Of a stretch of 64,000 nucleotides of DNA, positions 901 through 33,172 are shown one piece after another (the first letter of the stretch is position 1; each line of letters starts with the position of its first letter). The stretch is taken from IMG/VR virus record IMGVR_UViG_3300047323_000361, positions 16,075 through 80,074 of that record. One strand, given 5' to 3'. The notes under the pieces are model-generated. The model did no database searches and had not been told where the DNA came from. It saw nothing but the letters and a program-made list of their open reading frames with translations. Origin of the DNA: a virus. Both the position numbers and the translations under genes were made by a program.

Positions 901-2445
901 CTACGCGGCGAAGATCGGCTCTATCCTCGCGGGGTCGAAACCGCCGCCCCTCTTACCGTCCCGCGCGGGGTGGATGACCACTGCGGTCAGGACGGTGCGG
1001 GCCACGATGCGCTGACGCTCGACCGACATGCCATCCCAGCCGACGCGCAGCAGCTCGGGAGTGACGGCCCGGACGGCGGCAGGGGCCGAGTAGGCGCGCA
1101 GGGCGCGGAGGTCCTTCTTCTCGGCCTCCAGGTCGTCGAGGGTCGTCATGTAGGTGACGGCCTTGACCTTCTTCGCATCCCACAGGACCTTGATGTCCTT
1201 GATCTCCTGCTCGACCTCGGCCAGTCGGGCCTCCTTCTCCGGCGTCCAGTCGCTGTGAACCTGCTCGGGAACCTTCTTCTCCTTCGTGGACTTCTCCACG
1301 ATGTTCCAGATCAGCTTCTTGATGAGTTCGTCGACCCGGGGGCCGGTGACGCCCATCCGCCCGCAGGCGTCGGGGTTGGAGGAGGTCTTGTTGCAGTTGT
1401 AGCCGAAGGAGTCGGACTTCTTTCCCCGGATCCATACGGGCTTTCCGACCATGGGGTATCCGCACCGGCCGCAGCGGCAGATCCGGGACAGGAAGTACTT
1501 CACCGCCACCTTCTGGTCGTAGGCGGCGTAGTTACGCGGCTGGGCCTTCTCTCGCTCCTTCTTCGCGCCCAGGACGGCCTCGTACTTCTCTACCGGGCAG
1601 AGCGGCTCCCACGGGCCCATGACGTAATTGCCTTCGGCGTCGTACTGCACCTCTCCGAGGTATATCCGGATCCCGGCGTTGCGCGGTCGCATGATGATCG
1701 TCTTCACACCGGCCCACGTGTAGGGCTTTCCGGTGTCCTTGTTGAGCACGCCGGAGTCGAGGAAGAACTTGGCGATGGTGGTGTTCTTGTCTCCGGCGAT
1801 GTACATGTCCATCGCCTTGTTGACGATGTCCTTGGCTACCGGGTCGACCTTGTCCCTGTCCTCTTCCATCCAGCCGTAGGGGTGCGTGCCGCCGTGGTAG
1901 CGCCCCTTTTCGGCACGGTACTTGTTGTCACGTTTGATTCGCCGGGAGGTGTCCTCGGAGGACTTATTGGCGATGGAGACGTAGAGGCGTGCGGAGAACC
2001 GGCCGTCGGAAGTGGTGAGGTCGAAGTTCTGTCCGGAGAGGGTGTCGAAGACCAGCCGCTTCTTCTTCCTCTCGATGAAGTCCTCGTAGACGTCGATGTA
2101 CTTCTCAAGGTCGCGCGGCTGGCGAGCGAACCGGTCGATGTCGTAGGCGAGGACTCCGGCGATGCGCTCGGCCTTGAGGTCGGCGAGCATGCGGAGGAAG
2201 TCCACGCGTTTGACGTTGCGCTTGAAGGCGGACAGCCGGTGGTCCTCGTACCAGACCACGGTGCGCTCGTGCTTCTCGGCGAGGAAACGCAGGTCCTCCT
2301 TCTGCTTGACAATCGCCTTGCGCTCCTCCTCGGCGGCCTCCTCCTCGGTGATGCGACCGGCCTTCACGGCCCGCCGGAGTTCAGCTACGTCCACGTCAGA
2401 GATGCGGAGGTAGCCCCCCAACGGGCGGTCGTCCCTGATACCCAC
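901..2445 (-). CDS. int: Large serine recombinase (integrase)
   Basis: Large serine recombinase of about 514 aa. The N-terminal resolvase domain has the catalytic serine in GGYLRISDVD and the arginine-rich DIDRFARQPRDLEKYID segment. It is followed by a recombinase domain (DNKYRAEKGRYHGGTHPYGW), a zinc-ribbon region with CRCGRCGYPMVG and later cysteines (YNCNKTSSNPDACGR), then a coiled-coil-like C-terminus rich in E and K. These match the phiC31/R4-type family that joins attP and attB. The open frame extends upstream to 2622, but a TTGACA promoter lies across that part, so the GTG at 2445, a few bases after the -10, is preferred; this implies a leaderless mRNA. The TTG at PLGGYL is an alternative start. 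No attP was identified. Confidence 0.9.
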   Translation of the reverse strand: MGIRDDRPLGGYLRISDVDVAELRRAVKAGRITEEEAAEEERKAIVKQKEDLRFLAEKHERTVVWYEDHRLSAFKRNVKRVDFLRMLADLKAERIAGVLAYDIDRFARQPRDLEKYIDVYEDFIERKKKRLVFDTLSGQNFDLTTSDGRFSARLYVSIANKSSEDTSRRIKRDNKYRAEKGRYHGGTHPYGWMEEDRDKVDPVAKDIVNKAMDMYIAGDKNTTIAKFFLDSGVLNKDTGKPYTWAGVKTIIMRPRNAGIRIYLGEVQYDAEGNYVMGPWEPLCPVEKYEAVLGAKKEREKAQPRNYAAYDQKVAVKYFLSRICRCGRCGYPMVGKPVWIRGKKSDSFGYNCNKTSSNPDACGRMGVTGPRVDELIKKLIWNIVEKSTKEKKVPEQVHSDWTPEKEARLAEVEQEIKDIKVLWDAKKVKAVTYMTTLDDLEAEKKDLRALRAYSAPAAVRAVTPELLRVGWDGMSVERQRIVARTVLTAVVIHPARDGKRGGGFDPARIEPIFAA

Positions 2446-16358: not shown

Positions 16359-17234
16359 TCAGAAGGCTCCAGGAGCCACCTGAAGGCACCGCAGACCGAG
16401 CAGGCGCCACATCTCCACGACCTGGTCACGGTCGTCGAGGACGAACCACACGTTGTAGAACGGCTCGATCTTCGACCGGTAGATCTCCTCCTTGACGATG
16501 GAGTCCTTGCGCATGTCGTCGGGCGCCCGCATATGCAGGTACGCCTCCCGCGTCCACTTGCCCACGTGCAGTTCCAGCCAGGCCCGCGTCTGGTCGTAGC
16601 AGCAGCCGTCACGGCCGGACAGGAACACGATCTCCGCGCCGCTGTCCCGCAGGGTGTTCACCAGGTCGATGACCTCGCTGATCGGCTCGTCCTCGCCGAC
16701 CCGGTCCCACTCGAACGGACTGCGGCCGACCATCCGCGCCAGCGTGCCGTCGATGTCGACCAGGACCATGTTCGGCTTCGCCGGGTCGTACGGGGGCGCC
16801 TCGGCAGGCTTCGGGGCCAGGTACTGGTTGTACATGTCCCGGATGACCTTCTCGCCGACGCTCCGATCCCGCTGGAGGTCACGCTTGATGCAGGTATGAA
16901 GCGGCACGGCCGTGTGGTCGGAGACCTTGAACTCCGCACCGTGGTACGCGGCCAGCCGCCGCAGTTCCTTCTCGTGGTTGGGGTTGAGGTTGGTGTCGTC
17001 CACGATGACGCTCACACCGTCGCCCAGGAACGCCTCGACGAGGGCGTTGCGGGCCCGCACGACCCGGCGTTCGTTCTTCCCGTGCCAGACGCTGTCGTGC
17101 AGCATCGTGCGCAGGTCGTCCTTGTTGATCCGGACCAGCGTGCCGGGCTGGGCCTTGGCCACGATCCGCTTCGCCTCGGTGCTCTTGCCGGAGCCGGGCA
17201 GTCCCTTGGTCATGGTCAGCGTCAGCATCGTCAC
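16359..17234 (-). CDS. pnk: Polynucleotide kinase-phosphatase (T4 PseT type)
   Basis: 291 aa, close to the 301 aa of T4 Pnkp and in the same order. The N-terminal 5'-kinase has P-loop GLPGSGKST (11-19) and INKDDLR. The C-terminal HAD 3'-phosphatase has D160 and D162 in LVDIDGTLARM, FLSGRDG and later DDRDQV. It restores 5'-phosphate and 3'-OH ends for an RNA ligase. GTG at 17234 follows AAGGAGAAGCCC; a GTG at 17288 overlapping the upstream stop would add a Cys-rich N-terminus. PLHTC at 112-114 is CTT-CAT-ACC (16893-16901). The Rnl1-like ligase is two genes upstream. Confidence 0.93.
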   Translation of the reverse strand: MTMLTLTMTKGLPGSGKSTEAKRIVAKAQPGTLVRINKDDLRTMLHDSVWHGKNERRVVRARNALVEAFLGDGVSVIVDDTNLNPNHEKELRRLAAYHGAEFKVSDHTAVPLHTCIKRDLQRDRSVGEKVIRDMYNQYLAPKPAEAPPYDPAKPNMVLVDIDGTLARMVGRSPFEWDRVGEDEPISEVIDLVNTLRDSGAEIVFLSGRDGCCYDQTRAWLELHVGKWTREAYLHMRAPDDMRKDSIVKEEIYRSKIEPFYNVWFVLDDRDQVVEMWRLLGLRCLQVAPGAF

Positions 17235-27051: not shown

Positions 27052-27108
27052 AGCGAGCCCCACCGTCACCTGGCGTCCAGGCCAGACTGCATGACGGTGG
27101 GGCTCGCT
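27052..27108. terminator. Long-stem bidirectional terminator
   Basis: AGCGAGCCCCACCGTCA pairs perfectly with TGACGGTGGGGCTCGCT (17 bp), between convergent genes. Confidence 0.85.
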
Positions 27109-27180: not shown

Positions 27181-27306
27181 CTAGCCGTCACGCTCGACCA
27201 GCGTCTGCTCGTACTCCGGCGGCAGCTCCCCGTGCTCCTCGTAGTACCTCCGCAGCTTCTCGATGCTCTCGTCCGTCACACCGTTCGGACCATGCTCAAT
27301 CTCCAT
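27181..27306 (-). CDS. Small hypothetical protein (41 aa)
   Basis: ATG at 27306 after GGGAGGTCGGC. Product EIEHGPNGVTDESIEKLRRY with a Pro-Glu tail. Not recognised. Confidence 0.6.
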   Translation of the reverse strand: MEIEHGPNGVTDESIEKLRRYYEEHGELPPEYEQTLVERDG

Positions 27307-27309
27307 GCC

Positions 27310-27940
27310 GACCTCCCTTGAGTCGGTCGATCCTCCCACTCCCCCGGCGCCCCGATCCCCCAATTCCCCGAATCCCCCGGCCACTGTGACACTGTCCGGT
27401 TCCTACATTCGGTGCGCTGCGCGGCTGTCCGGGCCCCCTAGGTCTGGAATTTATGCGTTTAAGGGTAGGGGGGTGCATATTTATTCATTTGCTAGCACAC
27501 TTGACAGCCCTTTGTCAACTCGGACACATGGGACGCACCCTAGGCATCGCGCTTCTGACCAGTATGTGCACCCTTCACCCCTGGAGTGAGGTACGTCACA
27601 ATGGGGCGCAGCGTGGCCCTATGCACACGGCCGGGCATCTGTCAATAGGCAGTTTCTATGCATGCCTATTCAGCGTTATTCATGCGCGGCCACTGCCCTA
27701 TTCACCGAATTGCGCCCCTGTTTATATGTCCCGAGATATGGAGAGCGGGGCGCGACTGTAGCAACTCGACAACCAGGGGGCCGGAGAGTTTCACGGCATT
27801 GGGTGTGCGGTCGCATGGTGGGCGGTCGCATGGCCAGAGGGGTTGACGTAGCTGTGTCTCATGTGCAGTAGCCAGCAGTGGGGAGCCTTCCCCCGGCCCC
27901 GGATCCCTGGCCTGTTGTCGGCGGCGGGCGCATGCTGGAG
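27310..27940. other. AT-rich intergenic region, candidate origin or genome-end region
   Basis: About 630 bp with no convincing gene. Lower GC than the rest. Holds TATTCA four times (27480, 27668, 27678, 27699), AATAGGCA/TGCCTATT inverted arms (27644-27651, 27663-27670), a direct repeat GCGGTCGCATGG near 27810 and 27826, and the divergent promoter at 27501-27518. Confidence 0.45.
27501..27518. promoter_or_regulatory. Overlapping divergent promoter core
   Basis: TTGACAGCCCTTTGTCAA gives one -35 on each strand facing opposite ways: plus -35 at 27501-27506 with ACACAT 17 bp on, minus -35 at 27513-27518 with CTAGCA 17 bp on. Confidence 0.5.
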
Positions 27941-27954
27941 GGGTGACTATCGGC

Positions 27955-28269
27955 ATGTCGTGGGGTGCCCTGGAACACGGGCAGGCGTGGGGAGAGTTCC
28001 CGGACGTTGAACAGTGCGCGCGGGCCCTGAACAGCTCTCTACGGCGCACGCTGGGCAGGATGCCGCCCGGGTGGCGGGGGTGCATGCTGAAGAACTCAGT
28101 TCACGTGCTGCGCGTCGACATGTGCACGGCGGGGCTGCACGCGGTGGCGCATGGGCGGACGTGGCACGGGGCCCATGGGGGCGTCTGGGTGTCCCTGTAT
28201 CCACGTGGTGGAGGCAAACACGAGAAACCCCCCACCGGCCCGGTATTGGGGCGGTGGGGGGCTGCGTAG
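27955..28269 (+). CDS. Possible plus-strand hypothetical protein (104 aa)
   Basis: High GC at third positions and a protein-like N-terminus (SWGALEHGQAWGEFPDVEQC) favour coding; the tail runs through the terminator hairpin at 28224-28263, which argues against it. GTG at 27943 is an alternative start. Not recognised. Confidence 0.45.
   Translation: MSWGALEHGQAWGEFPDVEQCARALNSSLRRTLGRMPPGWRGCMLKNSVHVLRVDMCTAGLHAVAHGRTWHGAHGGVWVSLYPRGGGKHEKPPTGPVLGRWGAA
28224..28263 (-). terminator. Terminator after 28281 gene
   Basis: CCCCCCACCG and CGGTGGGGGG arms flanking a 16-base loop. Confidence 0.75.
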
Positions 28270-28280
28270 GGCCGTTGGGG

Positions 28281-28802
28281 TTACAGGTCTGCGTCCGCTT
28301 CGGCCTGCGCGATACACGGGCAGGTGTCAGCGTGATACGCGCTCCCATTGGCCGCGCGGGGCGTGCCGTCCTCGTAGAACCCGGCGACGGTGTAGACCAT
28401 GCGGTGACCGTTGGTCGCAATGCCGGTGTATTCGTCGCCGACGGCGAGGGGCGCGGCTGCGTTGGGGCGAGCGGCGGTGCCATCCTCACGGCCCCAACGC
28501 AGCGCGTCGGACAGTTCGGGGCGGTAGGCGAGCACGCGGCGCAGGTCGGCCAGGAACGGAGTACGGTCGAACGCTTCCCCGTCGGTGTAGGCGTCGATTG
28601 CTCCGAGCATGTACGCCACGGCCTTACGTCCCTCGTTGCGCGCGGACTCCCACATGTACTGATGTCCCGAGGGACTGGCGGCCAGGATCACGCGGTACCC
28701 CTTACCGTCGTGGCCGGTGCCGACCATGACGGATACCTCTTCTTTGGTGAGCGCTCCCAGGTGGGCGGCGACGGTGGCGGCGACAGTGTGTGTGATGCGC
28801 AT
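28281..28802 (-). CDS. Hypothetical protein (173 aa)
   Basis: Contains SVMVGTGHDGKGYRVILAAS, GEAFDRTPFLADLRRVLAYR and a C-terminal TCPCIAQ. RBS ACAGGAGGACAC within the shared leader sequence. Not recognised. Confidence 0.65.
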   Translation of the reverse strand: MRITHTVAATVAAHLGALTKEEVSVMVGTGHDGKGYRVILAASPSGHQYMWESARNEGRKAVAYMLGAIDAYTDGEAFDRTPFLADLRRVLAYRPELSDALRWGREDGTAARPNAAAPLAVGDEYTGIATNGHRMVYTVAGFYEDGTPRAANGSAYHADTCPCIAQAEADADL

Positions 28803-31196: not shown

Positions 31197-31276
31197 GCCC
31201 ATTCGGCACATCCATTTACAAGACGTTATGAAGCTGTGACCGGCGGCCGGGGCGGGCCGTGTTCCCATGGATGCCG

Positions 31277-31319
31277 AAGGGCCCCCACCGGCCAGCGGTA
31301 CGCGGTGGGGGCCTTTTGC
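31277..31319 (-). terminator. Terminator after 31330 gene (duplicated type)
   Basis: GGCCCCCACCG and CGGTGGGGGCC followed by TTTTGC. Nearly identical to the terminator at 33119-33160. Confidence 0.85.
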
Positions 31320-31329
31320 ATGCCCGGGG

Positions 31330-33045: not shown

Positions 33046-33074
33046 ACGTTACGGGTACGCATACCGCTTGTCAA
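33046..33074 (-). promoter_or_regulatory. Promoter of 31330-33006 gene
   Basis: TTGACA (33069-33074), 17 bp, TAACGT (33046-33051); AGCGGTA follows the -35. Confidence 0.78.
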
Positions 33075-33118
33075 CCGCTTCCGCTCAGCGGCTTTCCATG
33101 CTTCTATGTGCGGACACG

Positions 33119-33160
33119 AAAGGCCCCCACCGGCCAGCTCGACACGGTGGGGGCCTTTTG
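33119..33160 (-). terminator. Terminator after 33173 gene (duplicated type)
   Basis: GGCCCCCACCG and CGGTGGGGGCC then TTTTGCATGCC; shares long identity with 31277-31319 including the flank. Confidence 0.85.
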
Positions 33161-33172
33161 CATGCCCGGGGA

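Follow-up and report, generated by a model that had tools for sequence, protein, structure and literature searches.

What does the non-coding interval at positions 27310-27940 do in the window, by which we mean the whole 64,000-nt stretch analysed here (bases 16075-80074 of an 80,074-bp virus record)? The first-pass annotation had put forward a replication origin, a packaging region or the boundary of a terminal repeat. Sequence comparison makes it highly probable that the interval contains the terminal repeat of a linear phage chromosome, collapsed to one copy, together with its terminase cut sites. The predicted repeat runs over 27432-27731 on the minus strand (300 bp, or 327 bp if its left edge lies at 27758). 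We favour this reading because of the exact direct terminal repeats (DTRs) of four related phages, synteny with them, the spacing of elements at the edges and an orthologous terminase.

The phage, its relatives and the non-coding interval

The proteins encoded in the window include a DNA polymerase, a ribonucleotide reductase, a UvsX-like recombinase, a Cas4-like exonuclease, a queuine tRNA-ribosyltransferase, an RNA ligase, a polynucleotide kinase and a serine integrase. Five tRNAs are also present, and the terminase and portal genes lie elsewhere in the record, to the left of the window. The large serine recombinase at 901-2367 (minus strand), with Resolvase, Recombinase and zinc ribbon, suggests a temperate phage. 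The nearest named phages are the Streptomyces phages BRock, Alone3, LuckySocke, pSt2308 and GiJojo (polymerase identity 51-52%), to which the record is, at the level of sequence, distantly related. GiJojo is assigned to cluster BS in its genome announcement, and from similarity we infer that the other four belong with it, hereafter referred to together as the BS phages. A protein search further retrieved five IMG/VR contigs, all of which aligned to the window across the region at 69-99% identity; one alignment (L004) stops at 27550, the end of that contig. No match in the phage collection was obtained for the region in nucleotide searches, nor for the flanking protein at 28281-28802.

The interval is non-coding, as first annotated, and sits between a possible 41-aa leftward ORF (27181-27306, minus strand) and a rightward gene on the plus strand that starts at 27943 or 27955 and ends at 28269. 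The leftward ORF is not conserved in relatives, and alignment identity drops there: in 25-nt bins of the non-coding interval from 27800 to 27351, mean identity was mostly 0.7-0.9 (one bin 0.37), and it fell to 0.45 from 27350 on. The rightward gene matched phrog_19898 (E = 5e-11), a phage family of unknown function, and the bin upstream of it at 27876-27900, which holds GGGGGAAGGCTCCCC, reached a mean identity of 0.95 across relatives. The AT-rich character ascribed to the interval is mild over 27310-27940 (GC 0.610 vs 0.654 for the window) and strong in the core at 27432-27731 (GC 0.543); just 25 of 7,978 sliding 300-nt segments of the record had a GC content below that of the segment nearest this core. 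Single-strand folding of the region was ordinary (z = -0.49), and an Rfam search returned no match. Nearby, a perfect 17-bp inverted repeat with a 23-nt loop at 27052-27108, between two convergent small ORFs, is probably a two-way terminator. Two 55-bp hairpin elements that are about 91% alike (GGCCCCCACCGGCCAG..GTGGGGGCCTTTTGCATGCCCGGGG) lie downstream of genes at 31275-31329 and 33117-33171, recur in relatives and look like terminators as well.

We then compared the short repeats of the interval with Markov controls. Four TATTCA words are present as annotated, all on the plus strand (27482, 27667, 27677 and 27699; 27482-27704), and they make up half of the eight plus-strand copies in 64 kb. 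Their clustering in 27310-27940 is significant, with none of 5,000 local first-order Markov sequences of this interval reaching four copies. TATTCA also occurs four times (both strands) in the BRock terminal repeat. As a general mark of terminal repeats, repeated words proved weak and were set aside: they differ between relatives, and the commonest 6-mer reached P of 0.01 or less in 4 of 20 sequences (GiJojo, LuckySocke, pSt2308 and L035), the value for the window sequence being 0.216. The inverted pair noted in the annotation (AATAGGCA at 27644 and TGCCTATT at 27663) exists but is not significant alone, because an 8-bp inverted pair within 30 bp arose in 0.30 of 1,000 Markov sequences. The 12-bp direct repeat GCGGTCGCATGG is likewise real (27807 and 27822) but only weakly significant (0.033 of 1,000 Markov sequences), and most relatives carry a single variant copy.

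The interval had also been credited with a divergent promoter built on a symmetric TTGACA/TGTCAA core. The hexamers are there as a dyad at 27501-27518 (no strand; TTGACA at 27501, TGTCAA at 27513), and the form TTGAC-N8/9-GTCAA recurs in relatives, but a complete promoter was not found. A sigma-70 scan (-35 and -10 hexamers at 16-18 nt) detected none in the interval. A search for TTGACA-N16-18-TANNNT gave seven minus-strand matches in the window, none of them in the interval, and no match on the plus strand. Neither search thus lends support to a divergent promoter; the genes nearest the interval may nonetheless diverge. The companion claim, that the gene blocks on the two sides have different leaders, holds, as five of the seven matches lie at 33.0-39.5 kb, right of the region. 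Likely phage promoters of the form TTGACA-N17-TANNNT were seen on the minus strand at 33074, 34139, 35116, 37841 and 39441, and several of these share a leader ending near CACCAGGAGG.

Terminal repeats of the BS phages and synteny with the window

Comparison of record ends revealed exact DTRs in all four related records whose two ends were compared (BRock, 221 bp; Alone3, 197 bp; GiJojo, 197 bp; LuckySocke, 344 bp). For GiJojo, the announcement independently describes, from sequencing, a linear chromosome whose direct terminal repeats measure 197 bp; among the papers searched for on these phages, it was the only relevant one. The DTRs of these four phages occupy the intergenic region that is syntenic to the window interval, between a polymerase/queuine arm and an RNA ligase/terminase arm, and the interval of the window has this same position. 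In Alone3 and BRock, the two arms matching the window meet at the record ends, and the pSt2308 record, opened at another point, has this junction as non-coding DNA in its interior. Gene-by-gene tblastn showed that gene order in the window is almost that of Alone3 both left and right of the region, with the junction falling between the queuine transferase and the RNA ligase. Three small proteins (g17, g23 and g89) were out of order, and the window genes between 28 and 40 kb had no match in the stretches used.

The terminase large subunit of the record matched Terminase_6C (E = 1.8e-7) and was 61-63% identical to those of the five BS phages (next best, 33%), of which it is an orthologue. Its matches in the phage collection comprised ten records, namely six records from the five BS phages (61-63%) and four others (33% or less). 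The earlier proposals of a packaging region and of a terminal-repeat boundary are both backed by synteny, by shared edge signals and by a terminase orthologous to that of phages with terminal repeats at this place. That the window phage has the same ends, that these have the exact edges given below and that the terminase reads the conserved elements is what we infer.

In the mechanism that we propose, the terminase would recognise a site on the concatemer through the inner right-edge element TACCCTTA and the outer ACAGT, and would make its two cuts at GGCC|CGG and at CG|GG, one on each side. The repeat of about 300 bp would be duplicated, such that both ends of the virion chromosome carry a copy, and metagenome assembly would have merged the two copies into the single one in the record. 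Assembly graphs tend to merge short terminal repeats. This would explain why the contig runs straight through the site in seven of eight related records, an outcome that a collapsed repeat would produce, but so would a site with no genome end. Contigs ending at the site were rejected as a line of evidence, as the loci were trimmed and only one of the eight related records (G001, at window position 27550) stops inside the predicted repeat. The prediction suggests that a linear genome was assembled across its joined ends to give this record.

Predicted edges of the repeat

The right-edge cut site is predicted at GGGGGCC|CGGACAG, between 27432 and 27431 (27420-27445, minus strand), 36 nt after the Y of TACCCTTA. 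In all five BS phages, the Y of YACCTTTA is followed by a CC|TAG right edge at 35 nt and by ACAGT at 71 nt; the pSt2308 edges in this comparison are predicted rather than observed. Among ten family members, the edge is CC|TAG at 35 nt in eight and CC|CGG at 36 nt in the window and L027. The distance from the Y of YACCYTTA to ACAGT is 72 nt in these two and 71 nt in the other four relatives tabulated. The window therefore matches the right-edge layout (YACCYTTA, edge 35 nt on, ACAGT 71 nt on) within 1 nt, and the window and nine relatives share the BS edge layout as a whole within the same tolerance. Two conserved elements flank the cut on the minus strand, CCCCTACCCTTA inside it (27460-27471) and GACAGT outside it (27391-27396). 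CCCCTACCCTTA has a single copy in the 80-kb record, both alone and in composite with GACAGT, and the composite right-edge motif occurs once.

We also searched IMG/VR with a pattern that allowed 62-90 nt from the Y to ACAGT and recovered 15 stretches. In 16 records (these 15 and that of L007), the distance, calculated from match coordinates, was 71 nt in 11 records and 72 nt in the other 5, and the spacing alone is informative here because the records were chosen by the pattern. The terminase was found in 11 of 17 motif-related records (89-97% identity in four, 60-64% in seven), and in the remaining six the contig is 36-76 kb long and may stop short of the gene. In the genome collection, neither a match to the motif nor a relative of the phage polymerase was found. 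With fair confidence, we place the predicted right edge at 27432. Four contigs of 110-113 kb (L036, L038, L040 and L041) have the same right-edge motif and carry GGACAT three to four times upstream on one strand; their left edges were not found by the 36-nt rule described next.

The left-edge cut site is predicted at CTCG|GGACAT, between 27732 and 27731 (27724-27740, minus strand), where GG lies exactly 36 nt before the conserved CAGTGGCC (27688-27695, minus strand; CAGTAGCC in BS phages). All five BS phages have an ACTA|GG left edge 36 nt before CAGTAGCC. A left-edge GG stands 36 nt before YAGTRGCC in all 15 tabulated sequences (the five BS phages and ten family members), an agreement that amounts to fewer than 15 independent observations, as ten of the 15 are closely related to each other. 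In the script, CC ahead of TAG or CGG defined the right edge and GG at a distance of 36 or 37 nt the left one; these rules were picked after viewing the alignments. The left edge is weaker than the right because GG-N34-YAGTRGCC occurs twice in the 80-kb record. Moreover, the strongly conserved GTTGTCGAGTTGCTACA just outside it (27757-27773, minus strand) holds an alternative edge (27759|27758), at which GCTA|CAG stands in place of ACTA|GGG and to which MAFFT aligns ACTA. At 27731, the window thus matches the BS layout in spacing and GG and lacks ACTA, and the GCTA|CAG alternative is 27 nt away. The position of the left edge is accordingly uncertain, with 27731 (36-nt rule) and 27758 as the candidate positions.

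The BS phages carry ACTA|GG at both edges as inverted copies, which the window does not. Its edges read CTCG|GG on the left and GTCCG|GG, the reverse complement of the right edge, and we therefore did not class the window with the BS cut sequence. Matched inverted cut sites were discarded as a universal rule, being present in all five BS phages, with the pSt2308 edges as predicted, and in rough form in two of ten family members, and absent in the other eight. We next examined the edges with profiles. A family profile (HMM) built from eight family sequences found the right edge of the LuckySocke DTR in both copies (E = 9.9e-5 and 2e-4) and hit GiJojo in the right places with non-significant E values of 2-3.4. 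The same profile matched Alone3 and pSt2308 at wrong places only, with weak scores, and left BRock unmatched. A BS profile found L028 at the right place (E = 0.016) as its sole match, the window itself not being matched at E <= 10. Sequence similarity to the BS phages is thus supported at the right edge and thin elsewhere.

Alternative explanations and wider meaning

Could the interval be just a conserved divergent regulatory region, with operators and leaders and no genome end in the window phage? The rightward gene is readable in five of nine relatives searched, the TTGAC..GTCAA dyad is conserved and so is a G-rich stretch between the edge and the leftward ORF, all as such a region would have it. 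Yet four related records have exact repeats at both ends in the same edge context, the GiJojo announcement gives terminal repeats from sequencing, and no promoter was found in the interval, and we regard this explanation as unlikely. Contigs cross the site in seven of eight records, as they would in a permuted headful genome, but the closest named relatives, with an orthologous terminase, have exact repeats of 197-344 bp with fixed edges; a cos site or a headful pac site in place of a fixed short terminal repeat is scarcely credible.

A replication origin in this intergenic region would suit its AT-rich core, its repeated words and a change in the sign of GC skew. We confirmed that change at ~27.5-28 kb, but the skew reverts at ~21 kb, and the change arises because the 21-27.3 kb block differs in composition. 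A joined pair of linear ends would account for it equally well as an origin. GC skew was therefore dropped as evidence for an origin. A tandem iteron array was looked for and none was seen, and the repeated words vary between relatives. The suggestion of an origin thus received no positive support, and we consider it very improbable. The minus-strand genes of the 21-27.3 kb block have a third-position skew of +0.07, vs -0.13 to -0.29 in the other six blocks.

The collapsed terminal repeat favoured here resembles the DTRs of BRock, Alone3, LuckySocke and GiJojo in its place in the gene order, in edge elements and spacing within 1 nt and in having an orthologous terminase. It differs from the BS DTRs in that the window shows one copy, with a right edge of CC|CGG vs CC|TAG, a left edge of CG|GG vs ACTA|GG and a mostly unalignable interior; GC content also differs (65% in the window vs 53.5% for GiJojo, as given in the announcement). 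If the prediction is true, fixed ends and a repeat of a few hundred bp would be shared with phages of the T7/T3 type, a likeness of layout only. The T3 terminal repeat is given as 230 bp (PMC3896407), whereas the window has the gene content of a ~110 kb phage. For fixed-DTR phages of the Bacillus cereus group, the terminal sequences AGAAAAACCT-3' and 5'-AGGTTTTGTG have been reported (PMC5418689); to our reading, these roughly resemble inverted versions of one another, a likeness also seen between the ACTA|GG edges of the BS phages. The Bacillus phages are different phages with different sequence, and the comparison, limited to the termini quoted from that source, concerns the edge pattern only.

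We lean towards a broader proposal, namely that a broad group of ~105-116 kb phages, uncultivated members included, has its ends defined by a terminase site of two parts at fixed spacing. In this somewhat likely scheme, one element would lie 35 nt inside the right cut and the other ~36 nt outside it, with the left cut 36 nt before YAGTRGCC. If true, the sequence alone could tell where a genome ends and how long its repeat is, despite interiors that have diverged beyond recognition. A short terminal repeat is a known kind of structure, and we did not find this edge layout described in the open-licence literature searched. An unexplained AT-rich gap in an uncultivated phage has thus become a specific prediction of chromosome ends and a packaging site, and the layout offers a means of locating true ends in related genomes from metagenomes as well as in the permuted record of pSt2308. 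In the latter (L013), the motif rule predicts a 313-bp terminal repeat at 16675-16987; the record was deposited as a complete linear genome opened elsewhere than at this predicted repeat.
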